Source: a virus. From it: a stretch of 64,000 bases of DNA. The notes under the pieces are model-generated. The model saw only the letters and a program-made list of their open reading frames with translations, was not told where the DNA came from and did no database searches. The DNA lies in IMG/VR virus record IMGVR_UViG_3300021407_000012, positions 17,844-81,843 of that record; one strand, given 5' to 3'. This document shows positions 283 through 27,819 of this stretch, one piece after another (position 1 is the stretch's first letter; each line of letters starts with the position of its first letter). The translations under genes and the position numbers were made by a program.

Positions 283-370
283 GGAAGGATGTGTGAGTGG
301 TTTAAACAGCTACCCTGGAAAGGTAGTATACCGAGAGGTATCGTCGGTTCGAATCCGACTTCTTCCGCCA
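283..370 (+). tRNA. tRNA-Ser(GGA)
   Basis: Class II tRNA of 88 nt with encoded CCA. Acceptor GGAAGGA pairs with TTCTTCC (one G-U). Anticodon stem CTACC/GGTAG closes the loop CTGGAAA, giving anticodon GGA. Long variable arm and T-loop TTCGAAT are present. First of fifteen tRNAs in the left 7.7 kb. Confidence 0.95.
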
Positions 371-381
371 TTTAATAGAAT

Positions 382-469
382 GGATAGTTGGCAGAGTGGA
401 TGATCGCACTTGTCTTGAAAACAAGCGTACCGAGAGGTACCGTGGGTTCGAATCCTACACTATCCGCCA
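382..469 (+). tRNA. tRNA-Ser(TGA)
   Basis: Class II tRNA with encoded CCA. Acceptor GGATAGT/ACTATCC is perfectly paired. Anticodon stem CTTGT/ACAAG closes loop CTTGAAA, anticodon TGA (reads UCA serine codons; it is not a UGA suppressor). Long variable arm; T-loop TTCGAAT. Confidence 0.95.
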
Positions 470-486
470 TTTAAAAGAGACGTGAG

Positions 487-1089
487 ATGTTATTATATCA
501 TGGAACAAGTAAGAAATTGGTTGATGATATTTTGAAAGAAGGTTTGAAACCTCGGGGAGAAGATAAAGGTAACTGGTACGTAAATAACATACCAAGCCAT
601 CCCGATTTAATATACCTAACTGATCAGAAATGGCTAACGTATTTTTACGCTCTTAATTGTGCGGTTAATACAATGTCAAATGGAGGGTGTCTTCTTACAA
701 TTGATACTGAATTTCTTGACGAAGATAAGTTTCGGATTGACGAAAATTACTACACCGAAATTGAATTGGATCGAACAAATGCTACTAATAAGGCTGTTCC
801 TTTTGAAATACGATATGATCAATTAGATAGAATAGCATCAGATAAACGTTGGAAAGAATCGTTATCTGTATGTAATGCTTGTTCTTTTAAAGGGGTCATT
901 CCTCCGACAGCTATTATAAGTACTGATTATGTCGATAATGAATGGAATCCTCTTTTTAGAAAAGAGTTTGTGGCTTCTTCAGATGTAGAAGCTAATTTAG
1001 CAACAATTAAAGTTGTTTTGGACACTACAGGAGTTTTCATAAATACCAACACAGGTGAATGCTGTTGGGAAGATAGAATTTCAACTTGA
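487..1089 (+). CDS. putative ADP-ribosyltransferase-fold protein
   Basis: 200 aa. The N-terminus LLYHGTS (residues 2-8) followed by an ILKEGLKPR helix resembles the first catalytic motif of the ART/Tpt1-KptA superfamily (His of HGTS), and a downstream IYLTD at about residue 43 could be the second motif with a helix rich in aromatics. I cannot place a convincing third (Glu) motif, so the fold call is inference from the N-terminal third. Lies between tRNA-Ser(TGA) and tRNA(CAT). ART proteins are used by T4-like phages to modify host proteins or nucleic acid; the substrate here is unknown. Confidence 0.6.
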   Translation: MLLYHGTSKKLVDDILKEGLKPRGEDKGNWYVNNIPSHPDLIYLTDQKWLTYFYALNCAVNTMSNGGCLLTIDTEFLDEDKFRIDENYYTEIELDRTNATNKAVPFEIRYDQLDRIASDKRWKESLSVCNACSFKGVIPPTAIISTDYVDNEWNPLFRKEFVASSDVEANLATIKVVLDTTGVFINTNTGECCWEDRIST

Positions 1090-1145
1090 CCACGGATGTA
1101 CTGGCAAGTTAGTTGGGGAGTTGGAAGCCCTTACAAACCGTTTAT

Positions 1146-1222
1146 AGCGCGGACAAGCTTCGGTAGGCTGGCATGTCTCATAAGCATGTGTAAAGTGGGT
1201 TCGACCCCCACCTGCGCAACCA
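1146..1222 (+). tRNA. tRNA with anticodon CAT (Met or Ile2)
   Basis: 77 nt with encoded CCA. Acceptor AGCGCGG/CTGCGCA has an A-A mismatch at the first pair. Anticodon stem CATGT/GCATG, loop CTCATAA, anticodon CAT. T-loop TTCGACC. No GGG/CCC pairs in the anticodon stem, so an initiator tRNA is unlikely; elongator Met versus lysidine-modified Ile cannot be decided by eye. Confidence 0.85.
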
Positions 1223-1238
1223 AAATAAAGGATATATC

Positions 1239-1469
1239 ATGTATGATGTAGGTTTCAATTGGAAATCTGAGTTTAAGAATGAGATGATATATATTCCTCC
1301 AAAAATAAAGAGACACATAACAATAAAATATCGATTACCGTTTGAAACAGGTTGTGCTTCTTGGAGATGGTATCATAAGTTTCTTCATACACACGAAGAT
1401 AAAATGATATTTCCTGTTATGTGTGATACAAATGAAATCCTTATGGAAAAAGGATTGGTAATGTGTTAA
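1239..1469 (+). CDS. small hypothetical protein (76 aa)
   Basis: ATG with AAGGA 8 bases upstream. Basic, aromatic-rich protein without recognisable domain. One of the many 50-80 aa proteins interspersed in this genome. Confidence 0.65.
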   Translation: MYDVGFNWKSEFKNEMIYIPPKIKRHITIKYRLPFETGCASWRWYHKFLHTHEDKMIFPVMCDTNEILMEKGLVMC

Positions 1470-1478
1470 AAGGAGAGT

Positions 1479-1736
1479 ATGATGAAGTGGTTTATGCTTG
1501 AAGGAAAGTATTGCGTTTTGTTTTATATCATGATGGCAATCTGCTTCCAGATGGGTTATTTGTCTGGCATTGGTTTCCTCACAGTTTTATCATCGATCCT
1601 TTGGACTGTGGTTATCCTTTTTGGATGTGTATTGTTATCGTCCTATCTTATGGTTTTAGATTATAAGAAATATCGAGCAGCGCAAATTCTTGCGGCTCAA
1701 GAGGAACGGGATTTAAAAGAGCAGGCGGGAGAATAA
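1479..1736 (+). CDS. small membrane protein (85 aa)
   Basis: Start at 1479 (or the adjacent ATG at 1482) behind AGGAG. Two hydrophobic segments (about residues 12-32 and 36-58) followed by a charged, Ala/Glu-rich tail predicted helical. No family recognised. Stop is 2 bases before the release-factor start. Confidence 0.75.
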   Translation: MMKWFMLEGKYCVLFYIMMAICFQMGYLSGIGFLTVLSSILWTVVILFGCVLLSSYLMVLDYKKYRAAQILAAQEERDLKEQAGE

Positions 1737-1738
1737 TA

Positions 1739-2395
1739 ATGCGTAAGATTTTGGAGATATCGCAGGCAGAGGGCGGGGAAGACTCCCGTTTATTTGCGCA
1801 CGACCTTTTTAATGCCTATCGTAAGCTATGCGAGCGCATGGGTTGAAGAGGTACCCCCGTAGGGGAACTTATTTTACAGATTGACAACTGTGATGATCGC
1901 ATATACAATGAGATCGGTGGTCATCGAATTCAACGTGTCCCCCCGACAGAAAGACGGGGACGTGTTCATACGTCTACTGTTACAGTGTCGGTGACTGATG
2001 AATTGAAAAATGACTTTAAGATCAATGAGAAGGATTTGAAAGTTGACTGGTTTTCGGGGTCCGGTAAAGGCGGCCAACATCGTAATAAACATCAAAACTC
2101 CTGTAGACTTACTCACATACCTACAGGAATTACTCAAAAAGCCGAAGCTAGAGATCGACAAACGTCTTATCGCGAAGCATTTCAGGCATTATCTTCACTT
2201 CTACAATCTAGCCGGGCGTATCAGGCGACCGTTAGCCAAAGCAACATTCGACGGGACCAGATGGGCAGTGGAATGCGCGGTGACAAAAGAAGAACCTATC
2301 GCTTCCAAGATAACATTGTAACGGATCATGAATTAGGTACAAAGAGTACTTGTATTGATCTAATGAATGGAAAGTTTGAAAAGATATGGTCATAA
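1739..2395 (+). CDS. RF1-type peptide chain release factor with in-frame TGA
   Basis: Reading from ATG 1739 (GGGAG upstream) gives 35 codons of class-I release factor domain 2 (EGGEDSRLFAHDLFNAY), then TGA at 1844-1846, then continues in the same frame through IGGHRIQRVPPTERRG, the catalytic GGQ (SGSGKGGQH) and the conserved C-terminal region to TAA 2395. About 218 residues, lacking domain 1 like other short RF paralogues. The codon-recognition tripeptide position reads P-P-T, the PxT type of RF1 (UAA/UAG), not SPF of RF2. The TGA falls exactly after ERMG, where homologues carry a conserved Trp, so near-cognate readthrough as Trp would restore the consensus. No tRNA with anticodon TCA is in the window and TGA is used as a normal stop elsewhere. 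Alternatives: recent nonsense mutation, sequencing error, or regulated readthrough. Confidence 0.8.
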
Positions 2396-2565
2396 CACAT
2401 GAATATTATGAGACAGAGAATGTCAAAGAACGTGCACTTGATGTATTATTGAATGTATTAGGAGCGAATATCTATAGGTCTATAGGACGTATCTTTCCTA
2501 TTGTTCCTGACATGTATTCTTATAATCATTATGTTACTATAATAGAAGAAATAATGCGGGTATAG
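2386..2565 (+). CDS. small helical-family protein (59 aa)
   Basis: ATG 2386 overlaps the end of the release factor; TAG lies inside the first 10 bases of tRNA-Gly(GCC). C-terminus IIEEIMRV matches the C-terminal pattern (hydrophobic-x-x-hydrophobic-I-F/M-x-K/E) shared by proteins at 33988, 38991, 39182 and 49061. Function unknown. Confidence 0.65.
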   Translation: MVITHEYYETENVKERALDVLLNVLGANIYRSIGRIFPIVPDMYSYNHYVTIIEEIMRV

Positions 2566-2630
2566 CATAACGGTTTATGTGCCTGATTGCCAATCAAGCG
2601 TAGTGGGTCCGACTCCCTCTGCCCGCACCA
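2556..2630 (+). tRNA. tRNA-Gly(GCC)
   Basis: 75 nt with CCA. Acceptor GCGGGTA/TGCCCGC; anticodon loop TTGCCAA with stem CCTGA/TCAAG (one C-A mismatch); T-loop TCCGACT rather than TTCGANT. The preceding small CDS ends inside its 5' acceptor strand. Confidence 0.9.
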
Positions 2631-2640
2631 ATTTTACCCC

Positions 2641-2669
2641 TTGACAACATGAAAGTAATGAGGTAGATT
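2641..2669 (+). promoter_or_regulatory. sigma70-like promoter, possible leaderless transcript
   Basis: TTGACA (2641-2646), 17-base spacer, TAGATT (2664-2669). The predicted start point (about 2676) coincides with the ATG at 2676, which has no Shine-Dalgarno sequence. Confidence 0.5.
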
Positions 2670-2675
2670 GCAAAA

Positions 2676-2846
2676 ATGTCTGAAGAAGCGAGAGATATGA
2701 ATAACTACAAGCCTTACAGGACGAAGGCTCAGAAAGCTGAAGCCCGTCGTCTAGCCGTCAAGATTGACGGTCGTTGGGTGTCGTCTGCCCCTGTTTCGCG
2801 TCATGCGAGCAAGGAATTAACCATTGATGTACCGGAGGAAAAGTAA
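2676..2846 (+). CDS. small basic hypothetical protein (56 aa)
   Basis: MSEEARDMNNYKPYR start; Lys/Arg-rich. No ribosome binding site precedes the ATG, which sits at the predicted transcription start of the 2641 promoter. Stop overlaps the next start (taATG). No family recognised. Confidence 0.65.
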   Translation: MSEEARDMNNYKPYRTKAQKAEARRLAVKIDGRWVSSAPVSRHASKELTIDVPEEK

Positions 2847-3064
2847 TGTCGGAAATGGCATGCCCCGCTGAAAAACTCAAGTGGGGCGACGAGGTTCGGC
2901 TTAAGACCGATGAAAAGTCCAAGGGTTTGATCGTTGATGTGCAGAAAGATGCCACAACGGGTAAGCCGGATTATTTTGAGGTTGACTGGAAAACCGGTCA
3001 AAAGACGATGATTTATCACAAGGATCAACTGCTTCTTTTGAAGCCTTCGTTTGATAGGAGCTAA
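2846..3064 (+). CDS. hypothetical beta-rich protein (72 aa)
   Basis: Start overlaps the preceding stop by one base with GGAGG upstream. Sequence alternates charged and hydrophobic residues like a small SH3-type barrel (KWGDEVRLK ... GLIVDVQ). Function unknown. Confidence 0.7.
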   Translation: MSEMACPAEKLKWGDEVRLKTDEKSKGLIVDVQKDATTGKPDYFEVDWKTGQKTMIYHKDQLLLLKPSFDRS

Positions 3065-3065
3065 C

Positions 3066-3305
3066 ATGTTCCGCATGTTAATACGATACTTCAAAGAGTA
3101 CATTGGTTATTATCGTCCTAGTCGTGTCGATATGATCATCAATAGATCGATCCAGGCAAAGATTGATCCGAATTTGTTTAAAGACTTTGTTGAGGAAATG
3201 CAAAAGCTTCAAGTGCCGCCTGTGCATATGGCAGCTACACATAAACCGCGTTTCACATCGAGTGATGGTGTGATGACCGATTTGGTCACTGGTGAAGTTT
3301 TGTAA
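3066..3305 (+). CDS. hypothetical protein (79 aa)
   Basis: ATG 3066 chosen because TAGGAG lies 7 bases upstream; a TTG at 3051 in the same frame has no such site. Predicted N-terminal helix, then a basic segment. No family recognised. Followed directly by tRNA-Glu. Confidence 0.7.
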   Translation: MFRMLIRYFKEYIGYYRPSRVDMIINRSIQAKIDPNLFKDFVEEMQKLQVPPVHMAATHKPRFTSSDGVMTDLVTGEVL

Positions 3306-3309
3306 TTCT

Positions 3310-3384
3310 GGGGGTTTCTTCTATCGGCTAGGAACCTCGCTTCTCAAGCGAGTAAGACGGGTCCGACTCCCGTAACCCCTACCA
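3310..3384 (+). tRNA. tRNA-Glu(CTC)
   Basis: 75 nt with CCA. Acceptor GGGGGTT/AACCCCT; anticodon stem CTCGC/GCGAG closes loop TTCTCAA, anticodon CTC (GAG). T-loop TCCGACT. Confidence 0.9.
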
Positions 3385-3397
3385 AGGTTAAGGAAAG

Positions 3398-3664
3398 ATG
3401 AACGACGTGTTTGTGAAAACTTTCATTATGGGACGTATGTTGGACAAGATAGTGGAATTTGTTCCATTGTCTGAAAGACAACTGCTATTGATTACTAATC
3501 AACCGCCCCCTAATTTTATTCAATCTAGGGCTCCTAATAAGGTTATATTTCTTTCTCAAGGAGGAAAGATAAACATCATACCGACTGGCATGATCCAACA
3601 TTGGACCTGGGCTGGTTCGAGGGCTCTAAAAGCTTATACAACAAAATGGTTTGCGTATGAATGA
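3398..3664 (+). CDS. hypothetical protein (88 aa)
   Basis: ATG with AAGGAAAG upstream; its TGA overlaps the start region of the phosphatase gene. Mixed alpha/beta composition, no recognisable motif. Confidence 0.65.
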   Translation: MNDVFVKTFIMGRMLDKIVEFVPLSERQLLLITNQPPPNFIQSRAPNKVIFLSQGGKINIIPTGMIQHWTWAGSRALKAYTTKWFAYE

Positions 3665-4352
3665 TCTAACTGTAAAGAATTTTACGTATGTGGTCGGAGA
3701 TATCCATGGGATGTATGGCCAGATGCATCAATTGGTCGAGGCTTGTCTGGGACATGCCAAACATTATTCAATGCATCCGAAATTTGTATTTCTTGGAGAT
3801 TATATTGACCGCGGACCAAAGTCAAAAGAAGTTATCCAATACTTAATCGATTTCCCCCATGATAAAGTTTGTCTCATGGGAAACCATGAAGATATGTGTC
3901 TTGATTGGGGTAATCAGAGTATGTGGAGAAATAACGGTGGTATGAAGACCGAAGAATCATACCTACCGCAAGGTAGGGTATTGGATGAACATAGAGAATG
4001 GATGCGTCGCCTACCCCTTATTCATGAGGATGCACACCGCATTTATGTTCATGCTGGTTTAAATGATCAATGGTCATTAAAAGAACAGGTAAGAAAGGAT
4101 ATGCTTTGGATTAGAAATGCTTTCCTTTTGTCTGATCATGATTGGGGTAAACTTGTGGTTCATGGGCACATGCCCTACGATCCTAAAGATTTCCCTCAGT
4201 GGGGAATTGATAAGGTTCGTCTTAATCTTGATACTGCTTGTGTGTATGGTGGTTCTTTGACCGCTGCCTTCTTTAATGATGAACAGCGTAATCCCATCGG
4301 ATACATTCAAGTTGAAGCTGATAACGTCAACAAGTATACTCAAGGAGTATAG
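3657..4352 (+). CDS. PP2A/lambda-type protein phosphatase
   Basis: 231 aa calcineurin-like metallophosphoesterase of the bacteriophage-lambda PPase type. The signature motifs are all present: GDIHG (about residues 15-19), GDYIDRG (about 49-55), GNHED (about 77-81), a VHAGL block and a VHGHMP block supplying the remaining metal-binding histidines. Expected to dephosphorylate Ser/Thr or His phosphoproteins using two metals. ATG 3657 overlaps the previous stop; a TTG at 3651 is the only alternative. Small gene 4354 follows at once. Confidence 0.9.
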   Translation: MNDLTVKNFTYVVGDIHGMYGQMHQLVEACLGHAKHYSMHPKFVFLGDYIDRGPKSKEVIQYLIDFPHDKVCLMGNHEDMCLDWGNQSMWRNNGGMKTEESYLPQGRVLDEHREWMRRLPLIHEDAHRIYVHAGLNDQWSLKEQVRKDMLWIRNAFLLSDHDWGKLVVHGHMPYDPKDFPQWGIDKVRLNLDTACVYGGSLTAAFFNDEQRNPIGYIQVEADNVNKYTQGV

Positions 4353-4353
4353 A

Positions 4354-4494
4354 ATGGACACCGCAGTTCTTAATAAAGTTGATCAAGAATTTGAATATCG
4401 TAAGAAGCGTATCATTGATGATTTGCGTCGTCGGGGTCGTTCCGAAGAAGATATTCAAGCCCATTTGAAATGGATGGAAGAAAACCGAGATTAA
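4354..4494 (+). CDS. small charged helical protein (46 aa)
   Basis: ATG 4354 has GGAG 9 bases upstream and is preferred over upstream ATGs inside the phosphatase gene. Almost entirely charged and predicted helical. It is the last gene before the RNase P RNA. Confidence 0.7.
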   Translation: MDTAVLNKVDQEFEYRKKRIIDDLRRRGRSEEDIQAHLKWMEENRD

Positions 4495-4521
4495 TACGTA
4501 TACTACCTCTGCGTATTAAAG

Positions 4522-4880
4522 TTATAGACGGACTATCGCTGTACACCTATATGGGCTACCTTCGGGTACTGTACAGAGGAAAGTCGGGGCTGCACACGAA
4601 ACCGTACAAGGTAACACCTTGGTATTCATAACTGCCACGCTTTTATGAATGACGATTAGAGCAACAGAAAATATGTATGCTTTATATACATGCCTAGATA
4701 GAGTGGGATAAACTTGTATATAAAGGCGTAGTGAAATTGGCAATCTCTACGGGCAGCAATCCCTAATAGGTCACTAGCCTTCGTGGGCGTTACGGTGACG
4801 GGTCGGGAGCTAGAGGGTAATCGCGAGGTTACTCCCAGATAAATGATAGTACTTGACAGAACCCCGCTTATAGTCTATAA
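4522..4880 (+). ncRNA. rnpB: RNase P RNA (bacterial type A-like)
   Basis: About 360 nt, the normal size of bacterial RNase P RNA. P1 is a perfect 8-bp pairing of TTATAGAC (4522-4529) with GTCTATAA (4873-4880); ACTATC (4532-4537) pairs with GATAGT (4845-4850) as P2. The universal core is present: GAGGAAAGTCGGGGCT (from 4576; family consensus GAGGAAAGTCCGGGCT), AGAGCAACAGAAA (from 4659), GGGATAAACTTG, and the 3' block GACAGAACCCCGCTTAT (from 4855; consensus GACAGAACCCGGCTTAT). Together the GAGGAAAGTC and ACAGAACCC strands build P4. The 3' third aligns with E. coli M1 RNA nearly position by position (AGATAAATGATAGT versus AGATGAATGACTGT). It should be the catalytic RNA that matures 5' ends of tRNA precursors, plausibly those of the surrounding phage tRNA cluster, using host RnpA. 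No protein subunit gene is seen in the window. Confidence 0.95.
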
Positions 4881-4922
4881 TGCTACTACCTTAGAATGAC
4901 CATGATATTGAACGTAACAATT

Positions 4923-4944
4923 TGGGGCAGTTGGTCGAGCCCCC
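4923..4944 (+). terminator. possible terminator hairpin after rnpB
   Basis: GGGGC and GCCCC separated by about 10 bases form a short stem downstream of the RNase P RNA; the T-tract is weak, so termination is uncertain. Confidence 0.3.
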
Positions 4945-4963
4945 CTTGAATTAAAGGTGATAT

Positions 4964-5155
4964 ATGAAGATTAATCTATTTGCTGCTGCTTTTCTTGTTA
5001 CCATGGCTTTATTGATTTTTAAAGCATTAGGTTATATTACCATTGGATGGTTTTGGGTATTCTTGCCCCTTATCATTGGATTTGGATTTTGGATTTTGGT
5101 TTTGTTCTTTTGGATTGGAATATTTATTTTGGCTGCTATCTTTAGTAAAGATTAA
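4964..5155 (+). CDS. small membrane protein (63 aa)
   Basis: ATG behind AAAGGTG. Two strongly hydrophobic segments (about residues 4-24 and 28-58) with few charges. No family recognised; stop directly abuts tRNA-Arg(TCG). Confidence 0.75.
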   Translation: MKINLFAAAFLVTMALLIFKALGYITIGWFWVFLPLIIGFGFWILVLFFWIGIFILAAIFSKD

Positions 5156-5156
5156 T

Positions 5157-5237
5157 GCACGCATAACCCCCTCGTCTTCGAAACGAGAGAAAGGTAACTG
5201 GATGTAAATGGGGGTTCGAATCCCTCTGCGTGCTCCA
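5157..5237 (+). tRNA. D-arm-less tRNA-Arg(TCG)
   Basis: Acceptor GCACGCA/TGCGTGC with encoded CCA, perfect anticodon hairpin CTCGT-CTTCGAA-ACGAG (anticodon TCG) and a T-arm with loop TTCGAAT are clear. Between acceptor and anticodon stem there are only 7 bases (TAACCCC), so no D-arm can form; instead 22 bases containing GTAACTGGATGTAAAT separate anticodon and T-arms. The tRNA-Arg(TCT) at 6070 has the same layout and a similar linker, arguing against random decay. Confidence 0.8.
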
Positions 5238-5238
5238 T

Positions 5239-5316
5239 GGTTTCTTAGCTCAGTTGGAATAGAGCATCGCCCTGCGAAGGCGAAGGTCATCGGTTCGAGT
5301 CCGATAGAAACCTCCA
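5239..5316 (+). tRNA. tRNA-Arg(GCG)
   Basis: Canonical cloverleaf: GGTTTCT/AGAAACC, D-stem GCTC/GAGC, anticodon stem TCGCC/GGCGA closing CTGCGAA (anticodon GCG), T-loop TTCGAGT, CCA encoded. One base separates it from the preceding tRNA, so the two are surely processed from one transcript. Confidence 0.95.
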
Positions 5317-5335
5317 TTTTATAAAGGGAGATGAT

Positions 5336-5863
5336 ATGACAGGTGAATATAATTATAAAGGTGATTACGGTGCTATTGCGGATCGACCAATCGATTCAGC
5401 TACTTGGACTGGTGAAGACACTAGTAAGTATCCGGTAGCGAATGCTGTTTATATCAATACCAATCCTGTTGGTACTAGTAATGTAATGCTTGAAACTACT
5501 CAAGATACAAAGTATCAACAGTTTGAAGATGAAATACGGGCACTAATCAACAAACTATCACTTGAAGGTAATTCAAATACGCCTGATTTTATTCTCGCTG
5601 AGTTTCTGACAAACTGTCTTAAGGATTGGGATAGTGTTTCCTCTTATGAACAGTTTATGGATAGCGATGAAGTCCTTTGGGACTATCTGTGGCTTGCTCG
5701 CAGAACATTTCGAAACACAAAGACTGTTCGTGCCAAGTGGTATATGCCGGTTATCGCTGAAAAGATAGCTTCGTCTTGGTGGAAAAAGTTGTATGTTTTC
5801 TGGGGAAGGCTTTGGGTTGCTTACCTAAATAATGGTAACTATAGTGATGCCTGGAAAAAGTAA
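5336..5863 (+). CDS. hypothetical protein (175 aa)
   Basis: ATG with GGGAG 8 bases upstream. Polar N-terminal 60 residues, then a helical domain rich in Trp and Phe with a basic C-terminus. No signal peptide or recognised family. Flanked by tRNA genes on both sides. Confidence 0.75.
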   Translation: MTGEYNYKGDYGAIADRPIDSATWTGEDTSKYPVANAVYINTNPVGTSNVMLETTQDTKYQQFEDEIRALINKLSLEGNSNTPDFILAEFLTNCLKDWDSVSSYEQFMDSDEVLWDYLWLARRTFRNTKTVRAKWYMPVIAEKIASSWWKKLYVFWGRLWVAYLNNGNYSDAWKK

Positions 5864-5867
5864 TTAT

Positions 5868-5944
5868 TGGGGAGTAGGCTACGTTGGCTAAACCGCTTGG
5901 CTCTGAACCATGAGTAGAAGGTTCGACACCTTCCTCCCCATCCA
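5868..5944 (+). tRNA. tRNA-Gln(CTG)
   Basis: Acceptor TGGGGAG/CTCCCCA, anticodon stem CTTGG/CCATG (one mismatch) with loop CTCTGAA, anticodon CTG; T-stem GAAGG/CCTTC with TTCGACA; CCA encoded. Confidence 0.9.
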
Positions 5945-5952
5945 TTTTTCTC

Positions 5953-5981
5953 TTGACATTCGAGGGAGATAAGTATACAGT
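5953..5981 (+). promoter_or_regulatory. sigma70-like promoter upstream of tRNA-Cys
   Basis: TTGACA (5953-5958), 17 bases, TACAGT (5976-5981; an overlapping TATACA has a 15-base spacer). Predicted start point falls at about the first base of tRNA-Cys (5989). Confidence 0.5.
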
Positions 5982-5988
5982 AGATAAT

Positions 5989-6062
5989 GTCCTGTTGGCA
6001 GACCGACGATGCAACGGATTGCAACCCCGTTAAAGCTGGTTTAATTCCGGCACAGGACTCCA
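5989..6062 (+). tRNA. tRNA-Cys(GCA)
   Basis: Acceptor GTCCTGT/ACAGGAC; anticodon stem ACGGA/CCCGT (A-C at the loop end) with loop TTGCAAC, anticodon GCA; T-stem GCTGG/CCGGC. T-loop is TTTAATT, lacking the usual C56. CCA encoded. Confidence 0.85.
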
Positions 6063-6069
6063 CTTTAAT

Positions 6070-6152
6070 GGTCTAGTAACCGGTTCGGGTTTCTACCCCG
6101 CTATCCGTAATTGGAGTTGTAAATGCGGGTTCGAGCCCTGCCTAGATCGCCA
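6070..6152 (+). tRNA. D-arm-less tRNA-Arg(TCT)
   Basis: Acceptor GGTCTAG/CTAGATC, CCA encoded, anticodon arm CGGG-TTTCTAC-CCCG (anticodon TCT), T-arm with TTCGAGC. Only TAACCGGT separates the acceptor from the anticodon stem, leaving no D-arm, while 22 bases including GTAATTGGAGTTGTAAAT follow the anticodon arm. Same architecture and related linker as tRNA-Arg(TCG) at 5157. Confidence 0.8.
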
Positions 6153-6168
6153 TTTTAGGAGGTATATT

Positions 6169-6330
6169 ATGAAAGATGTTGATGCTGATCTTACCGAAGC
6201 ATTATCGATTATCGCTGGTTTAATGTATTATGTTTCTGGTCATGATCTACGAGAAAGAGAAGCAAAGATTTTGAAAGAGTATTGCAATCGTGCTAATTCT
6301 CTTAGACAAAAGTATCAAACGCTTTCTTAG
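6169..6330 (+). CDS. small helical protein (53 aa)
   Basis: ATG with AGGAGG 6 bases upstream, a near-perfect Shine-Dalgarno. Charged, predicted helical. Its last 10 bases, including the TAG, are the 5' end of tRNA-Arg(CCT). No family recognised. Confidence 0.75.
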   Translation: MKDVDADLTEALSIIAGLMYYVSGHDLREREAKILKEYCNRANSLRQKYQTLS

Positions 6331-6396
6331 TTCAACCGGAGAGAATAGTTGTTTCCTAAACTTCAGATTTGGGTTCGAGTCCCAAGGAAAGCACCA
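6321..6396 (+). tRNA. tRNA-Arg(CCT), weak anticodon stem
   Basis: Acceptor GCTTTCT/GGAAAGC, D-stem GTTC/GAAT, T-stem TTGGG/CCCAA with TTCGAGT, CCA encoded. The anticodon loop best reads TTCCTAA (anticodon CCT), but its stem GTTGT/ACTTC has two T-T mismatches. The final A of CCA is also the A of the next gene's ATG. Confidence 0.75.
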
Positions 6397-6725
6397 TGAC
6401 TAGATTAGAGAAGATTGATGCGTTTTATGCGGTTGCTTTTATTGGTATTATGATCTATGTTTTTTGGTTTTATGTTCCTATGCAGTCTCATAGTTATTAC
6501 ATTCAAGGAACATTTGACGGTAAAGTTGGTTTAATAATGAATAGTCCTTTCATAGTTAAAGAACTTTGTGAGGATGTTGCTAAAGAGGCTCAAGCCGAAG
6601 TTGATTTGAATAAACTGAGCATCTATATGATCCCTATAGAAGATCGTACTGATGTAATGAAAGAAGCTTTGAAAACTGATATCAAGATATCTTGTGTTTC
6701 AAAGAAACCGATTATGGAAAGTTAA
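6396..6725 (+). CDS. membrane-anchored hypothetical protein (109 aa)
   Basis: ATG 6396 uses the last base of tRNA-Arg(CCT); its Shine-Dalgarno AAGGA lies within that tRNA's T/acceptor stem, and its TAA lies inside tRNA-Ser(GCT). One N-terminal transmembrane helix (about residues 12-30), then a soluble domain. Processing of the flanking tRNAs should destroy this mRNA, so tRNA maturation and translation compete. Confidence 0.8.
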   Translation: MTRLEKIDAFYAVAFIGIMIYVFWFYVPMQSHSYYIQGTFDGKVGLIMNSPFIVKELCEDVAKEAQAEVDLNKLSIYMIPIEDRTDVMKEALKTDIKISCVSKKPIMES

Positions 6726-6802
6726 ATCGCCAGGGCGCGATACCCGATTGCTAATCGGAGGGAACCGAAAGGTTTGAGTTTCGAGTACTCAGCTTTCCGC
6801 CA
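6716..6802 (+). tRNA. tRNA-Ser(GCT)
   Basis: Class II: acceptor GGAAAGT/GCTTTCC, anticodon loop TTGCTAA with stem CCCGA/TCGGA, long variable arm containing AACCGAAAGGTT, T-loop TTCGAGT, CCA encoded. The upstream CDS stops within its first 10 bases. Confidence 0.92.
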
Positions 6803-6806
6803 ATAC

Positions 6807-6881
6807 GCGATGCTTGTATAGAAGGATATGCCCTAGGTTTCCACCCTAGAGAGACTGGATCGTTACCAGTGCATCGCTCCA
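6807..6881 (+). tRNA. tRNA-Gly(TCC)
   Basis: Acceptor GCGATGC/GCATCGC, anticodon stem CTAGG/CCTAG with loop TTTCCAC (anticodon TCC), T-stem ACTGG/CCAGT. The T-loop reads ATCGTTA, not the canonical TTCRANT. CCA encoded. Confidence 0.88.
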
Positions 6882-6908
6882 TATTAACCCTAACAGAGGA
6901 TTATTATT

Positions 6909-7217
6909 ATGAGTTTAACAGGTATGATTTTAGGTTGTGTGCTTGCCGCTGGTGGCAATGCTCCGGTGGATTGTGGTTCTGATACTGATTTGGTATTGGC
7001 TCGCTCTAAGCCAGATGTTTTTGCAACATTAAATGATTGTAATGAGGAATCTGGTCAGTATGTAGCTGAGATGGTAAGCCCCGTTGCTCGCCTTATGTAT
7101 GGGGTACCTCCTGAAGTAAACGTAATCTATTATCGTTGCCTGGACGGTGATAAGGTAGTTTATGACTCTCTTACTCAGGGGAAGAATATTCTCGACCAAG
7201 ATAATGATTCGAAATAA
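6909..7217 (+). CDS. secreted-type Cys protein, paralogue 1 (102 aa)
   Basis: Short hydrophobic N-terminus (TGMILGCVLAAG) resembling a signal peptide, and four cysteines in the mature part. Related to the next gene: both end with a Cys-D/K-G/D...KVVY-x-SL block. No family recognised; probably exported. Confidence 0.7.
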   Translation: MSLTGMILGCVLAAGGNAPVDCGSDTDLVLARSKPDVFATLNDCNEESGQYVAEMVSPVARLMYGVPPEVNVIYYRCLDGDKVVYDSLTQGKNILDQDNDSK

Positions 7218-7232
7218 GAAAGGAAACATATC

Positions 7233-7559
7233 ATGCTTACAGGTGTTATTCTTGCGTGTGCCGTTAGTTTAGCTAACCCTTCAATCAACGCTGTTGATCC
7301 TGAGAATTGTATGCCGATTTGGTCATATTCTTCTGATCCTTTGGCTTTTGAAGATGTGGATGAATGTCAATCAGAATCAAGGGATTTTCTTGAACAACTT
7401 GCACAGAGCGACGATATTCGAAAGCATTTGAATGCTCCTACTGTCCGTACATTGAATAATGGTAGCATTCCAGTTTATTTCTTTGTTTGTAAAGACAAGG
7501 ATGAGAAAGTAGTTTATAACTCCTTGAAGAATGCTCAAGATAATAACAAGGATCAATAA
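7233..7559 (+). CDS. secreted-type Cys protein, paralogue 2 (108 aa)
   Basis: Follows its paralogue (6909) after 15 bases with AAGGAA upstream. N-terminal hydrophobic stretch (TGVILACAVSLA) then conserved cysteines and a KVVYNSL motif. Tandem duplication of an exported small protein; role unknown. Confidence 0.7.
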   Translation: MLTGVILACAVSLANPSINAVDPENCMPIWSYSSDPLAFEDVDECQSESRDFLEQLAQSDDIRKHLNAPTVRTLNNGSIPVYFFVCKDKDEKVVYNSLKNAQDNNKDQ

Positions 7560-7573
7560 ATAGAGAGAGTTAT

Positions 7574-7644
7574 TGGGGTGACCAGAAGTTGGAACGGTGC
7601 CTTTGAAGCATCGGAGTAGGGGGCAGTACCTTACACCCCATCCA
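7574..7644 (+). tRNA. tRNA-Gln(TTG)
   Basis: Acceptor TGGGGTG/CACCCCA, anticodon stem GGTGC/GCATC, loop CTTTGAA (anticodon TTG), CCA encoded. T-stem GTAGGG/CCTTAC closes loop GGCAGTA, lacking the T54-T55-C56 motif; the same loop occurs in this phage's tmRNA. Confidence 0.88.
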
Positions 7645-7649
7645 GTTAT

Positions 7650-7725
7650 GGCGGTATAGCTTAATCGGCTAGAGCGGGCGTCTCATAAGCGTCAGATTCG
7701 GGTTCGATCCCCGGTTCCGCTACCA
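7650..7725 (+). tRNA. tRNA with anticodon CAT (Met or Ile2)
   Basis: Acceptor GGCGGTA/TTCCGCT (one T-T mismatch), D-stem GCTT/GAGC, anticodon stem GGCGT/GCGTC, loop CTCATAA (anticodon CAT), T-loop TTCGATC, CCA encoded. Second CAT tRNA in the cluster. Confidence 0.88.
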
Positions 7726-9429: not shown

Positions 9430-10182
9430 ATGGAATATGAAGAAAAATTCCGGGGTATGGCTCATGCAGGTCAACACGCATCCCGGTGCCTCTCGTTATT
9501 AAAAGATTTGATTGTACCGGGCTGGTCAACGGCTCGGATTGATGCGTTCGTCCATGATTATGCTAAGGCTAATGATTTAATATGTGCGACGAAGGGATAT
9601 AAGGGTTTCCCTGCCTATTGTTGTACTTCCGTCAACCACATTGTCTGTCATGGTATACCATCCTTAAGTAAAATACTCAAAGATGGTGACTTATTAAAGG
9701 TTGATATCACATTCATTAATAAGGATGGCTGGCATGGTGATACATGTCGGACATATTTCGTCGGTGACGCTTCAGTTAAAGCCACTCGGGTTGCTCAGGT
9801 CGCTAAGGAAGCCATGGATAGAGCGATTGCTATTATTCGCCCCGGTGTGACGTTTGGTCATCTGGGGAAGGTATGTGAAGACTATGTTAACAGTCAAAGG
9901 ATGGGTGTGGTCAAGGGATATTGTGGTCATGGAATAGGGCAAGAGTTTCATACTTTACCTCCTATTCTACATTATTATGATCCGAAGAGTTCCTATGCGC
10001 ATCAACCTATTCTAGAAGGAATGACCTTTACAGTTGAACCAATGGTAACATTTGGTAAGTCGGATGTAAAGGAACTGTCTGATGGGTGGTCGGTAGTTAC
10101 TAAAGACCGATCCCTGTCAGCACAATGGGAACACACAATAGGAGTAGTTGCAAATGGGCACCACATATTCACCGCCTACTAA
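9430..10182 (+). CDS. map: methionine aminopeptidase, type I
   Basis: 250 aa pita-bread fold enzyme removing N-terminal Met from nascent proteins. The metal ligands are visible in order: Asp in VDITFIN (about residue 97), Asp in GDTCRT (about 108), His in GHGIGQEFH (about 171-179), Glu in FTVEPMV (about 203), Glu in AQWEHTIG (about 235). The GYCGHGIG block is typical of type I. Length matches the family. Placed directly behind a terminator and a consensus promoter, apparently translated from a leaderless mRNA. With the tRNAs, release factor, tmRNA and RNase P RNA it forms part of a large translation-related gene set. Confidence 0.95.
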   Translation: MEYEEKFRGMAHAGQHASRCLSLLKDLIVPGWSTARIDAFVHDYAKANDLICATKGYKGFPAYCCTSVNHIVCHGIPSLSKILKDGDLLKVDITFINKDGWHGDTCRTYFVGDASVKATRVAQVAKEAMDRAIAIIRPGVTFGHLGKVCEDYVNSQRMGVVKGYCGHGIGQEFHTLPPILHYYDPKSSYAHQPILEGMTFTVEPMVTFGKSDVKELSDGWSVVTKDRSLSAQWEHTIGVVANGHHIFTAY

Positions 10183-14218: not shown

Positions 14219-14439
14219 TGGCACCTAGACCATGGGAACCTGTTGGAAGATATTACCTACTTGAATGGTGGGAAGATAATGTTACAGATTTAATGGGTGC
14301 GTTAGCACAATTATATAGTGTGGATATCTATGGTACTAATGCTCGTTTAATACGTTTTGCTACTCAAAGATGGAATTTCATGCAATCAATAAAAGAACGA
14401 ATCTCACGTTTACAAGATCAAATATATCGAAGAGGATAA
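14215..14439 (+). CDS. small helical-family protein, group B (74 aa)
   Basis: ATGATG start overlaps the gmhB stop. Trp-rich N-terminus; C-terminal helix SIKERISRLQDQIYRRG resembles those at 16348 and 30886. Sits between gmhB and transaldolase. Confidence 0.65.
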   Translation: MMAPRPWEPVGRYYLLEWWEDNVTDLMGALAQLYSVDIYGTNARLIRFATQRWNFMQSIKERISRLQDQIYRRG

Positions 14440-14441
14440 AA

Positions 14442-15182
14442 ATGAAAAACATTCGTTTGTTCGCCGATACAGCGTCGATGACTGATATTAAGGAAATGGT
14501 AGCTAATGACTTGGTGGAAGGATATACTACTAATCCTACGCTCATGCGTCGAGCGGGAATTAAGGATTATAAGGGATTTGTCACCGAAGTCTTGGATTAC
14601 CTAGCGGAACATCATCCCGATGGATGTATCTCTTTTGAGGTATTTTCGTCGGATGAAATGGAGATGGTTTATGAGGCTCGGGAGTTGAAAAAACTCAACT
14701 ATCATAACTATAATATGTATGTCAAGGTGCCTTATCTCAATATCGATGGACGCCCTAATGAGCAAGTTATTCGTAATCTGCTCAAAGAGGATATTTCAGT
14801 CAACGTAACAGCAGTTTTTAATCAGATACAGGCTATCCATTCTATTCAGATGTTAGCCGACGATAATAATGATCATATTATATCGATCTTTGCTGGTAGA
14901 ATTAATGATACTGGATATCCGGCTGAAAAAATTGTAGCCTATATTATAGCTATTCCAACTCAGAATGTAGAAATCCTTTGGGCATCCCCTCGTCAGGTTT
15001 TTGATTATGTTTTGGCAGATAGTGTAGGGTGTCATATTATCACCATGACCCCCGATTTAATAAGGAAGATACCGGGAATTGGTACGCCTCTGAAACTGGC
15101 AGCATTGAATACATCGCGTCAGTTTTATGATGACGCAAAAGCTTGTGGTTATAAACTTTGGGAGAATGAAGATGGGGTTTGA
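14442..15182 (+). CDS. talC: transaldolase
   Basis: 246 aa TalC/TalB-type TIM barrel: LFADTAS start, GYTTNPTLMR (about residues 26-35), catalytic Schiff-base Lys in MYVKVPY (about 93), SVNVTAVFN (about 124-132). AGGATAAAA precedes ATG 14442. Interconverts sugar phosphates, providing sedoheptulose 7-phosphate, the entry substrate of GmhA. Cyanophages carry talC for pentose-phosphate flux; here its position inside a heptose cassette suggests precursor supply. Confidence 0.92.
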   Translation: MKNIRLFADTASMTDIKEMVANDLVEGYTTNPTLMRRAGIKDYKGFVTEVLDYLAEHHPDGCISFEVFSSDEMEMVYEARELKKLNYHNYNMYVKVPYLNIDGRPNEQVIRNLLKEDISVNVTAVFNQIQAIHSIQMLADDNNDHIISIFAGRINDTGYPAEKIVAYIIAIPTQNVEILWASPRQVFDYVLADSVGCHIITMTPDLIRKIPGIGTPLKLAALNTSRQFYDDAKACGYKLWENEDGV

Positions 15183-16182
15183 TGAAAATGAGATCAGTGC
15201 CAAGGCATATGGTGGAACTGAGATAGCGAAGAGACTGCTGGCAAATACTCTTGATAAAGAATTGCTATCTCATTTCCAAATTATTCCATCGCGCATTCGG
15301 GAATTGAAAGAGGATAAGATTCGTATCCTGTTTCTAAATGACCTTGCGGGCGATCCTGAAGTTGCTCAGTTGAAGGACCATAACTATCGAAACAAGTTTC
15401 ATAAATTTGTGTTTATTTCAAATTGGCAATATCAACAGTTTCAGACAATTCTGAATTTACCATATGATCACAAGTCTATTGTGATTGAAAGTGGTATTGC
15501 TCCTTCTAGTGCTAAGTTCGAAAATAAACCAACCGATAAGATTAATCTGGTTTATACTTCTACCCCTCAACGAGGGTTGAATATCCTGGCGGCTGTGTTC
15601 AATGAATTGTGTAAGAGGTATGATAACCTACATCTAGACGTGTTTTCGTCATTCAAGATTTATGGATGGGAAGAACAGGATAAGGCATTTGAGCCTTTAT
15701 ACCAGCAAATCCGTGATAATCCTAATGCGACTTATCATGGCTTTGTCCCCCATGATGAACTTTTGAAGCATGTTGCAGAACAGTCGCATATCTTTGCTTA
15801 TCCGAGTGTTTGGCAGGAAACTTCTTGTCGGGCTATGTTAGAAGCCATGGCTTCGCAGTGTGTTTGTGTACATCCAAATTTCGCTGGTTTGCCTGATACG
15901 TCGGGAAGTTTGAACCTTATGTATGCAGGTGATCAAGATATGCAAGTTCATGCTAACTTGTTTATGAGCAGCGTTGAACAGGCTATCAAGATGATCAATG
16001 ATCGAGAAAATGTTGACAAGCTTCAACAGCGTTTGCAATATGTTCAAAACTATATCAATGGACGTTTTAATATAGCCAACGTATCTCGGACCTGGGATAA
16101 TCTTTTGAGAGGATTGCTTCAGACTATGCCTGATCCAAATTCTCGACGCTTCCCCGGTGATATGTTTTCGTATAAATTCTGA
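15172..16182 (+). CDS. GT4-family glycosyltransferase
   Basis: 336 aa GT-B fold. YGGTEIAKRLL near the N-terminus is the usual donor-side glycine loop; the C-terminal half has VYTSTPQRGLNIL, YHGFVPHDEL and the family signature PSVWQETSCRAMLEAMASQ (ExF/E-7-E type). Predicted to use a nucleotide sugar, most simply the heptose nucleotide made by neighbouring genes. ATG 15172 (GGGAG upstream) overlaps the transaldolase stop; ATGs at 15127-15130 are alternatives. Confidence 0.88.
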   Translation: MGFDENEISAKAYGGTEIAKRLLANTLDKELLSHFQIIPSRIRELKEDKIRILFLNDLAGDPEVAQLKDHNYRNKFHKFVFISNWQYQQFQTILNLPYDHKSIVIESGIAPSSAKFENKPTDKINLVYTSTPQRGLNILAAVFNELCKRYDNLHLDVFSSFKIYGWEEQDKAFEPLYQQIRDNPNATYHGFVPHDELLKHVAEQSHIFAYPSVWQETSCRAMLEAMASQCVCVHPNFAGLPDTSGSLNLMYAGDQDMQVHANLFMSSVEQAIKMINDRENVDKLQQRLQYVQNYINGRFNIANVSRTWDNLLRGLLQTMPDPNSRRFPGDMFSYKF

Positions 16183-16587: not shown

Positions 16588-17125
16588 GATTATCCAAAGA
16601 TTGCTTGAGCAAACGATTAAGCTGAGTAATGAAAATGTTCAGCTTAAGAATGAGGTTGAATATTTTCTAAGGATGGATCGTGAAATTGCTCAGACATTAG
16701 GTACCGCAACGGCATTTCGTTTGGTGACTGATAAAATTCGAACGTCAAATACAGAACCGGAGCAAATGCATCTGAATATGTTTAATCGTCCGATGTATGC
16801 TTATACTGATGGTACTGGACAACTGTTACAAGAGATTCAAACGACTAAGCATCATTTGAAGAAACTGTTTACTCATATTCAAGCTGATCCACAAAAGTAT
16901 GGATCGTACATTAAGGTACTTGTAGGTAACGAAACCAAGGCAGCTATTTTTGTTGATAATGATTATCTGTTTCGTAGTGGTTTGACGCCTCGGGATATCG
17001 AGTATCTTTCAAAACATTTGGCTGAAGAGCTAGGTACTTTTATTAATCAACACTACCAGACAGAACGGGATATTAATCATGTTAATCGTCAAAACTCCCC
17101 TGAGGGTGCCCTTCTTCTCCGGTAG
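16544..17125 (+). CDS. hypothetical coiled-coil protein (193 aa)
   Basis: Basic N-terminus, then coiled coil (about residues 15-45: LLEQTIKLSNENVQLKNEV), then an alpha/beta domain. Overlaps 16348 by 44 bases and hddA by 47 bases. Position inside the heptose cassette, function unknown. Confidence 0.7.
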   Translation: MGNRYGRNQKRKHREIIQRLLEQTIKLSNENVQLKNEVEYFLRMDREIAQTLGTATAFRLVTDKIRTSNTEPEQMHLNMFNRPMYAYTDGTGQLLQEIQTTKHHLKKLFTHIQADPQKYGSYIKVLVGNETKAAIFVDNDYLFRSGLTPRDIEYLSKHLAEELGTFINQHYQTERDINHVNRQNSPEGALLLR

Positions 17126-18176
17126 TTCCGACCATCCTGCCTTTGTTCAAACAGAGGGGGGAATGGCATTTTCAGCGACTATTGATAAGTATGTCTATGT
17201 GATTATTCATAGTAATGTTGAAAATCAATTTAGATTTACTCATGATACTATACAAGTAGGTCATGATGTAACTCAGATTAAACATACAATTACCGAGAAA
17301 TCATTTGAAGCAATTAATTCTCGAATTCATGATTATAATCGTATAAACAGAACTGAGTTCCAGGCATTACCAAAGAATAGTCTTACGATTGCTTCGTTGA
17401 ATGATATCAATCAGGTTGGAACGGGTTTAGGGGCATCTTCGGCTTATACCGTTGGTTTGGTAAACGCTCTATATACCTTCTGTAGTTTCCCCCCTAATGA
17501 AACTACACTCGATAAGATGGCTGAGATGGCTTGTAAGATTGAGATTGATTATTGTAAATATCCTATTGGTGTACAGGATCAATGGGCAGCGTCGATAGGA
17601 GGAACAAACCTGTTCACATTTAATAAGGATGAAACTGTTGGTGTTGAACAGTTCCATAATATGGAACGTATGCGTCGGTTTGCTAACTCTCTTGTTTTGA
17701 TCAATAGTGGGGTTCAACGTCATTATAAGGATATTGTTGAAACAGGAAAAGAAACAAAAGGTTATCTGACGCATCCTAAGTATGATAAGCTTAAGGAAGC
17801 CCAGAAAGCAAATATGCGCGAAGGTAAGATTCTAGCGAAAACAGCCTGGGATATTTTGAATTCCCGAGAAGGAAACGGCAACCTAGATTACATAGGGGAA
17901 ATGCTAAATAATTCTTGGAGAAAGAAGAAGCTTACTGATAGAAAAGTTACTGACGAACAAATTGATGGTCTTTATGATCTTTGTATAGATAATGGCGCTA
18001 TTGGTGGTAAACTGCTTGGGTCAGGTGGGGGAGGATATATGTTGTTTTATGTCCCTCATGACAAGCGTGATGAATTCTTAACCAAACTTCCTTTTGAATA
18101 TAAGTCTCGGGTGGTCAACTTCTCTTTTACGCACGAAGGCTCAAAAATTATATATAATGATAGGAGCACTAAATAG
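17079..18176 (+). CDS. hddA: HddA-like heptose-7-phosphate kinase (GHMP)
   Basis: 365 aa GHMP kinase. TPLRVPFFSGSSD (residues 6-18) is the HddA/galactokinase-like substrate motif, GTGLGASSAYTVGL (about 110-123) the phosphate-binding loop, and LLGSGGGGYMLFY (about 310-322) the C-terminal GHMP motif. HddA phosphorylates D-glycero-D-manno-heptose 7-phosphate at C1. Completes, with gmhA, gmhB and a nucleotidyltransferase, a route to a nucleotide-activated heptose. Confidence 0.9.
   Translation: MLIVKTPLRVPFFSGSSDHPAFVQTEGGMAFSATIDKYVYVIIHSNVENQFRFTHDTIQVGHDVTQIKHTITEKSFEAINSRIHDYNRINRTEFQALPKNSLTIASLNDINQVGTGLGASSAYTVGLVNALYTFCSFPPNETTLDKMAEMACKIEIDYCKYPIGVQDQWAASIGGTNLFTFNKDETVGVEQFHNMERMRRFANSLVLINSGVQRHYKDIVETGKETKGYLTHPKYDKLKEAQKANMREGKILAKTAWDILNSREGNGNLDYIGEMLNNSWRKKKLTDRKVTDEQIDGLYDLCIDNGAIGGKLLGSGGGGYMLFYVPHDKRDEFLTKLPFEYKSRVVNFSFTHEGSKIIYNDRSTK
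18169..18175 (+). promoter_or_regulatory. CTAAATA late-promoter-like motif
   Basis: CTAAATA 11 bases before the GTG start at 18187, same layout as at virion genes in this window. T4-type late promoters are TATAAATA. Confidence 0.4.
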
Positions 18177-22081: not shown

Positions 22082-22251
22082 GTGCTTTTGATTATGGGTT
22101 TATTGCTGATAGAATATTCAATATGGTTATGTCCCCTATTTTTACCGAATGTCTTAAACACGCACCAATGACTAATCATCGATTGTTTACTGAACAACTT
22201 GCTATGTTTACTCGAATGGAACGAACGATACAAAATGGATTTGCCAAATAA
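22063..22251 (+). CDS. small helical protein (62 aa)
   Basis: Overlaps the hydrolase end (ATG 22078 alternative). Met-rich, helical, ending FTRMERTIQNGFAK. Unknown. Confidence 0.6.
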   Translation: MLASGMSAFDYGFIADRIFNMVMSPIFTECLKHAPMTNHRLFTEQLAMFTRMERTIQNGFAK

Positions 22252-27177: not shown

Positions 27178-27465
27178 ATGATACTTCCTGAATCTTTAGT
27201 AGGTTATATTGCATCGGTCTATATTTGTCTAGCATCAGCGACCGTTTGTGATAATTCAAATGCTCTTTGGACAAATTGGGCTTATATGCGCCCTGATAAT
27301 GGTATGGTCGAACTTTCGTCCCCTGAGAAATTGAAGCAGATTTGTATCGATACAATGAAAAAAAATATTCCGAAGATCAATGCTCCTTATTTTACCATGG
27401 ACGGGTCGAAAGAGGGCGAGCGATTAAAAATTCGGATTGAATGCGAAAAAGGTGTTGACATCTGA
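27178..27465 (+). CDS. putative secreted protein (95 aa)
   Basis: N-terminal hydrophobic stretch (ESLVGYIASVYICLASA) may be a signal peptide; mature part has two further Cys. The 3' end overlaps the -35 box of the tmRNA promoter. Confidence 0.6.
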   Translation: MILPESLVGYIASVYICLASATVCDNSNALWTNWAYMRPDNGMVELSSPEKLKQICIDTMKKNIPKINAPYFTMDGSKEGERLKIRIECEKGVDI

Positions 27466-27483
27466 CCCAAGATGCAGTATAAA
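27455..27483 (+). promoter_or_regulatory. consensus sigma70 promoter of tmRNA
   Basis: TTGACA (27455-27460), 17 bases, TATAAA (27478-27483). Best promoter in the window; expected start about 27490. Confidence 0.9.
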
Positions 27484-27489
27484 TAAGAC

Positions 27490-27783
27490 ACTGGACGATT
27501 AGTTGATGGTTCAACTAAACACGAAACACTCGGGGGCAGTACCCGATACCTCCACCAAAAGCACATACCCTACCCAAAGGGTTGTTGACAGGGTTGGAAG
27601 GATCAACGCACAGGATGTGCTTTTGATGGGGGTAAAATAGGTTCGACTTCGTGTGGAATGGAATCGGATAGTCGGTCGGTATATAACTGTCGCATCAAAC
27701 GACAACTTTGCTCGGGAACTCGCCCTCGCGGCGTAATTCCCTACGGAGTTCGGTAGCTTCCTTGGCAACAGAAAAGCTACCAT
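27490..27783 (+). ncRNA. ssrA: circularly permuted two-piece tmRNA
   Basis: The acceptor half comes first: T-arm TCGGG-GGCAGTA-CCCGA (27540 region), then TACCTCC plus A-CCA ending at 27557. Its partner strand GGGGGTA lies downstream at 27628-27634, followed by the D-region analogue AGGTTCGACTTCG. The 70-base intervening loop carries an extension of the acceptor stem (AAAAGCACAT with ATGTGCTTTT), so both halves fold together before processing. The tag frame starts at GCA 27692 after ACTGTC and reads ASNDNFARELALAA, stop TAA 27734-27736; NDN near the start and LAA-type end are typical of alphaproteobacterial tags and of ClpXP/ClpAP degrons. A GGTAGCTT/AAGCTACC hairpin ends the gene. Role: rescue of stalled ribosomes, with tagging of the product. 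Exact ends are estimates. Confidence 0.93.
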
Positions 27784-27819
27784 TTCACCATGTGTTTAAC
27801 GAAAATAGGAGTGTATACA

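Follow-up and report, generated by a model that had tools for sequence, protein, structure and literature searches.

The RNA of RNase P, an ancient ribozyme, is an RNA enzyme that trims transfer RNAs, and P13 and P14 are usual in its bacterial type A form, being a variant feature that is not required of all members. The gene has been classed as a vertically inherited cellular one (PMC3486863). Archaeal type A RNAs lack P13 and P14, in the type P RNAs of Pyrobaculum the greater part of the specificity domain is gone, and the RNA and the protein subunit can be swapped between bacterial species with variable reactivity (PMC4919922). The huge phages (PMC7162821) and Stenotrophomonas phage DLP6 (PMC5349666) have tRNA clusters, a tmRNA and T4-like core genes in common with the phage described here, and in the megaphages of a further study tRNAs and one tmRNA were the only Rfam RNAs (PMC8172020). 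RNase P is mentioned in the text of neither the huge-phage paper nor the DLP6 paper, and our search of the open-access literature, including the PhiMa05 paper and RNase P reviews, turned up no description of an RNase P RNA encoded by a phage; as subscription papers and most preprints lie outside that literature, priority is not proven. Compared with the described phage tRNA islands with tmRNA, an RNase P RNA is an added processing ribozyme.

The window analysed here comprises 64,000 nucleotides (G000:C1:17844-81843) of an 81,843-base IMG/VR virus record. A first-pass annotation had proposed a phage-encoded RNase P RNA inside a tRNA cluster at 4522-4880 and had suggested a search with the Rfam covariance models. 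With cmscan, RF00010 matched in full length at 4520-4886 (+), all 367 model positions being aligned, with 167.8 bits against a gathering score of 100 (E=2.3e-52 for the whole window). Together with the tRNAs and the T4-like carrier, this match bears out the proposal; the locus was right and only its ends were drawn 2-6 bases too short. It is the sole RNase P match in the 81,843-base record. The RNA occupies the space from the end of a short ORF (4494) to the start of another ORF (4964), on the strand of all cluster tRNAs.

The core elements named in the first pass (GAGGAAAGTC, P1, AGAGCAACAGAAAA and GACAGAACCCC..GCTTAT) were all recovered. Conserved regions I and V are both kept, ACAGAACCCCGCTTA is present, and P4 (AG[U]CGGGG/CCCCGCT) forms 7/7 pairs with the U bulged. 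Agreement with the consensus amounts to 101 of the 120 highly conserved (upper-case) positions and 48 of the 200 variable (lower-case) ones. The MFE fold of the RNA reached a z-score of only -1.5, and MFE folding was set aside as weak support. A 12/12 match to the sigma-70 consensus (TTGACA-17-TATAAT) at 4853-4881 (+) lies entirely within the 3' end of the RNA, where it covers conserved region V and the P1 3' strand; this stretch may be a chance occurrence or the promoter of the downstream tRNAs.

Table 1. Coordinates of the RNase P RNA, its elements, the tRNA genes and the tmRNA in the window.
Feature	Position	Strand	Basis or remark
tRNA-Ser (GGA)	283..370	+	ARAGORN, Rfam
tRNA-Ser (TGA)	382..469	+	ARAGORN, Rfam
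tRNA-Met (CAT)	1146..1222	+	ARAGORN
tRNA-Gly (GCC)	2556..2630	+	ARAGORN, Rfam
tRNA-Glu (CTC)	3310..3384	+	ARAGORN
RNase P RNA, bacterial class A, P13/P14 absent	4520..4886	+	RF00010, model 1-367
P1 5' strand GTTATAGAC	4521..4529	+	9 bp with 4873-4881
GAGGAAAGTC	4576-4585	+	element named in the first pass
Conserved region I, GAGGAAAGTCGGGGCT	4576..4591	+	
P4 5' strand AG[U]CGGGG	4582-4589	+	within conserved region I
L15-like loop TTGGCAATCTC	4737..4747	+	immediately after GTGAAA
P4 3' strand CCCCGCT	4862..4868	+	
P1 3' strand GTCTATAAT	4873..4881	+	closing helix, 9 bp with 4521-4529
tRNA not called by ARAGORN	5157..5237	+	Rfam 34.7 bits; encoded CCA
tRNA-Arg (GCG)	5239..5316	+	ARAGORN, Rfam
tRNA-Gln (CTG)	5868..5944	+	ARAGORN, Rfam
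tRNA-Cys (GCA)	5989..6062	+	ARAGORN, Rfam
Divergent tRNA, sub-threshold	6070..6152	+	Rfam 25.3 bits; sequence
tRNA-Arg (CCT)	6321..6396	+	ARAGORN, Rfam
Probable tRNA-Ser (GCU)	about 6717..6802	+	by eye: acceptor/anticodon pairing, encoded CCA; missed by ARAGORN
tRNA-Gly (TCC)	6807..6881	+	ARAGORN
Probable tRNA-Gln (UUG), odd T-arm	about 7576..7645	+	by eye: acceptor/anticodon pairing, encoded CCA; missed by ARAGORN
tRNA-Met (CAT)	7650..7725	+	ARAGORN, Rfam
Permuted tmRNA, alphaproteobacterial-type	27451..27784	+	RF01849 92.2 bits; ARAGORN, tag VASNDNFARELALAA

The tRNA cluster extends from 283 to 7725 around the RNA, and the fifteen genes counted in the first pass hold up (11 by ARAGORN, one by Rfam, one sub-threshold and two by eye). 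The abnormal architecture ascribed to several of them was only partly right: four escape ARAGORN and the T-arm of the tRNA at 7576 is atypical. The 5' end of the probable tRNA-Ser (GCU) overlaps the 3' end of ORF 6369-6725, and U73 occurs in several tRNAs of the cluster. The phage tRNAs carry an encoded CCA, and the tandem pair at 5237/5239 is one base apart, where an RNase P cut would release both tRNA ends. The permuted tmRNA is likely a further RNase P substrate.

With regard to architecture, the window RNA shares regions I-V, P1-P4, the bulged U of P4 and the P15-P18 region with bacterial type A RNase P RNA (rnpB), but it is phage-borne, lies in a tRNA island with no rnpA on the contigs, lacks P13 and P14 and has an enlarged P12. 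The absence of P13 and P14, where the covariance alignment passes over 43 model positions, resembles archaeal type A in that one respect only; the window RNA matches the bacterial model and keeps P18, and the carriers are tailed phages of bacteria. P13/P14 are likewise skipped in the covariance alignments of the viral RNAs G068, G003, G033, G007 and G041, the gap at this place is larger in G067, and in G009 and G014 both helices are missing as judged by sequence. A Chloroflexi sequence (L177) also lacks them. Counting P13/P14 by regex distance is noisy, and the P13-loop regex overlooks a few viral RNAs that have P13, e.g., G023; the statements on phages rest on the covariance alignments. The GGU motif of L15 pairs with the 3' CCA of the tRNA. 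In the window RNA the motif reads TTGGCAA, with GG retained and the U changed to C (GGC, not GGU), and GGC is also found at L15 in some alphaproteobacterial references.

Comparison with candidate host rnpB, as the first pass had advised, set the two apart. Among 41 alphaproteobacterial genomes, 37 had one RF00010 match each above the cut-off, with 252-338 bits, and the P13 loop was retained in 33/33 alphaproteobacterial rnpB compared, while the phage RNA reached 167.8 bits and has no P13. On these scores and on the P13 loop, the window RNA is not a stray host rnpB. In a quick tree it groups with the viral RNAs G009 and G014 (SH-aLRT 96; 57% identity), apart from the alphaproteobacteria, a placement to be read with caution as the branch is long. 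A blastn search of the window RNA against INPHARED gave zero matches; three other viral RNAs also matched human fecal 'Bacteriophage sp.' contigs by blastn. The P4 variant CGGGG was dropped as a phage signature, being common in Acidimicrobiia and Coriobacteriia.

The carrier could be identified from its proteins. Those of the window match T4-type gp32 (phrog_224, PF08804), head closure, baseplate wedge and tube cap, and an IMG/VR sister contig, 3300050821_001858 (G001, 113 kb), with a single difference in its 33.8-kb overlap with the window record, adds the Gp20 portal, scaffold, Gp23 capsid, UvsW, clamp, clamp loader and PolB. Judged by the gp32 and baseplate genes of the window and by Gp20, Gp23 and PolB of G001, the carrier is a T4-like phage of bacteria. 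The match of the permuted tmRNA to the alphaproteobacterial family weakly suggests that the phage may infect an alphaproteobacterium. It also carries metabolic genes, namely an M24 peptidase (methionine aminopeptidase-like; 9430-10182), a transaldolase (14370-15182), a glycosyltransferase (15127-16182), a GHMP kinase (17079-18176) and an MT-A70 methyltransferase (22199-22819).

The RNA recurs in other viral contigs. A seed pattern, GAGGAAAGTCNGGGCT, matched 59 stretches of viral contigs, and 38 of the 50 IMG/VR records screened passed the RF00010 cut-off, including records of 497, 463, 372, 369, 363, 268 and 252 kb. Some of the 38 are host flanks, as is probably the case for several short records derived from isolates, whose 334-bit hits lie close to the ends of the contigs. 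TerL (phrog_2) was positive in 13/32 records, yet also in 11/14 cellular controls; Gp23 was positive in G001, G035 and G039 and negative in all controls. Among 43 records, for the most part short fragments, a search for Gp23 relatives yielded two more T4-like carriers, G067 and G068, so the finding is independent of the seed pattern. Gp23 capsid and RNase P RNA thus stand together on at least five contigs (G001, G067, G068, G035 and G039), the match in G039 (385 kb) being under the cut-off with 86 bits. At least three tRNAs lay within 1.5 kb of the RNA in 19/25 phage loci, compared to 0/30 alphaproteobacterial rnpB. The RNA sits in a phage genome and has a class A core, and its relatives are found in the tRNA islands of many large phages. 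Three apparent carriers among the blastn hits of the other viral RNAs were rejected: CAKLQF020000022 represents an Acinetobacter prophage adjoined by host sequence, AGRM01000002 belongs to Salmonella, and in MW495066.1 ('Microcystis phage MaAM05') the RNA lies among bacterial genes. The stretch of the latter record at about 103-128 kb (L220) resembles a bacterial chromosome fragment, with secD/F, glyS, fabI, fliM and pomA beside a 252-bit rnpB of the cellular type.

Furthermore, 19 named records of phage collections were searched with RF00010, the first fifteen with stricter filters that are able to lose weak matches. The cultured, complete Stenotrophomonas phage DLP6 (KU682439.2) contains a match of 249 nt (105774-106022; 54.7 bits; E=3e-17 for the genome), which fills an unannotated gap between CDS AAY80_165 and a tRNA-Arg inside the tRNA cluster. 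With cmscan, a piece of DLP6 of 268 bases yielded no hit and longer stretches reached E=1e-15, a difference tentatively ascribed to the very short input. In the 484-kb huge phage LR756508.1, an unannotated 226-nt match of 49 bits lies immediately 5' of a tRNA-Ser. The third match, MW495066, is in apparently bacterial DNA, and the other 16 records (T4-like, alphaproteobacterial or huge phages) gave no RF00010 match. Both complete genomes parallel the window phage in having the RNA beside tRNAs, but their RNAs are strongly reduced: they score below the RF00010 cut-off, which misses reduced forms of 49-55 bits, and are without most of the specificity domain, a reduction resembling that of type P. 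They retain P1 and 7/7 P4 pairs with mostly different letters. In DLP6, ARAGORN also called 37 tRNAs in an 18-kb stretch, more than annotated, and a permuted tmRNA (KU682439.2 102807-103150; L360:4808-5151; tag ANDDSFAPMAIAA) that is absent from the deposit annotation. Most T4-like relatives and isolates tested are without RNase P RNA, which makes it dispensable in general. The description of such an RNA in a virus as rare therefore holds for most isolates tested and for the literature covered, but not for huge-phage contigs, in many of which it recurs.

The pairing of the helices was then compared across phage types. P1 has 9-11 bp in the window RNA, G068, G067, DLP6, G009, G007 and G033, with mostly unrelated sequences. 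In nine distinct phage types, 98.4% of the P4 cells were paired and 5/7 pairs had changed on both sides; 16 cells were double-changed versus 4.9 in shuffles, and the covariation score was reached by 0/500 shuffles, a test that is liable to be inflated by related sequences and by the preference for pairing of the covariance model used to find the RNAs. The signal was lost when the partners were slid out of register. The seed pattern had constrained the P4 5' strand only. In the window RNA, a C-G to G-C swap relative to the bacterial majority is compensated. With P1 fully paired in unrelated sequences and compensated changes in P4, the helices are, on this comparative evidence, under selection.

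No RnpA (PF00825) was found in 37 viral records including DLP6, the window genome being incomplete, while 10 bacterial controls were positive. As 0/37 viral records carry RnpA, the host RnpA is the likely partner of the phage RNA, which, if active, must share it; competition for RnpA, the other suggestion of the first pass, may occur. From position, conservation and recurrence, the best-supported function is that of a maturation ribozyme supplied by the phage itself. We consider it probable that 4520-4886 is a phage-resident ribozyme that works with host RnpA and matures phage pre-tRNAs, and probably the pre-tmRNA. The transcript would be expressed along with the tRNA island, bind RnpA supplied by the host and cut the 5' leaders of the phage pre-tRNAs, probably also that of the pre-tmRNA; the phage tRNA supply would thereby become independent of how much RNase P the host has and of which substrates it prefers.

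The sharing of host RnpA and the divergent specificity domain would also suit a decoy, for which good catalysis is unneeded: by capturing RnpA or pre-tRNA of the host, it would starve the host enzyme and shut down host tRNA maturation. Such a decoy is improbable, since the catalytic P4, the bulged U and conserved regions I and V, which it would not need, are kept with compensatory changes, and a block of tRNA maturation would also hurt the adjoining tRNAs of the phage itself. Slightly less probable again is that the RNA is dedicated to processing substrates other than pre-tRNAs (mRNA of phage or host, pre-tmRNA or antisense RNA), with tRNA maturation secondary. Bacterial RNase P does handle pre-tmRNA and some phage-induced RNAs (PMC4919922), and the phage genome does encode a permuted tmRNA, but the tRNA neighbourhood in 19/25 phage loci speaks for tRNAs. 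That the RNA is a host rnpB that was picked up together with tRNA genes and survives as a non-functional relic is very improbable: its score is low beside those of cellular rnpB, but its changes are concentrated at non-conserved positions, P1 and P4 pairing survives two-sided changes, with covariation disfavouring a relic, and the RNA recurs in unrelated phages. Host contamination or a chimeric assembly, for which MW495066, the Acinetobacter prophage record and the isolate-derived records set precedents, is scarcely credible given a sister contig that has the identical sequence along with T4 structural genes (though the samples may be related), one continuous strand with phage genes, a sequence unlike any rnpB compared, and the parallels in DLP6 and LR756508.

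Beyond maturation of phage tRNAs by a phage-resident ribozyme, there is a somewhat less than even chance that large phages keep a distinct, long-evolving class of RNase P ribozymes, with a pared-down specificity domain and a re-encoded P4, acting as hybrids with host RnpA tuned to phage tRNAs. During infection, tRNA maturation would then come partly under viral control. In such a class, P13/P14 would have been lost first, then nearly the whole specificity domain in the 226-249-nt forms, and P4 would have departed from the common bacterial sequences. If there is a viral branch under selection, it would mean that phages take over tRNA maturation, and mechanistic studies would gain naturally minimal RNase P RNAs of the bacterial type. 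DLP6 is a cultured system that makes it testable why phages carry tRNAs and whether the host processes them.

Other structured RNAs lie close to some of these loci. GOLLD RNA (RF02032) is likewise a large structured RNA of phage tRNA islands, though of an unrelated family, and in G039 a GOLLD RNA (212 bits, L050:5070-5488) shares the tRNA island with the diverged RNase P RNA. A group I intron (L035:3325-3528) was found near the RNase P RNA in G027, a large phage contig of 202 kb.
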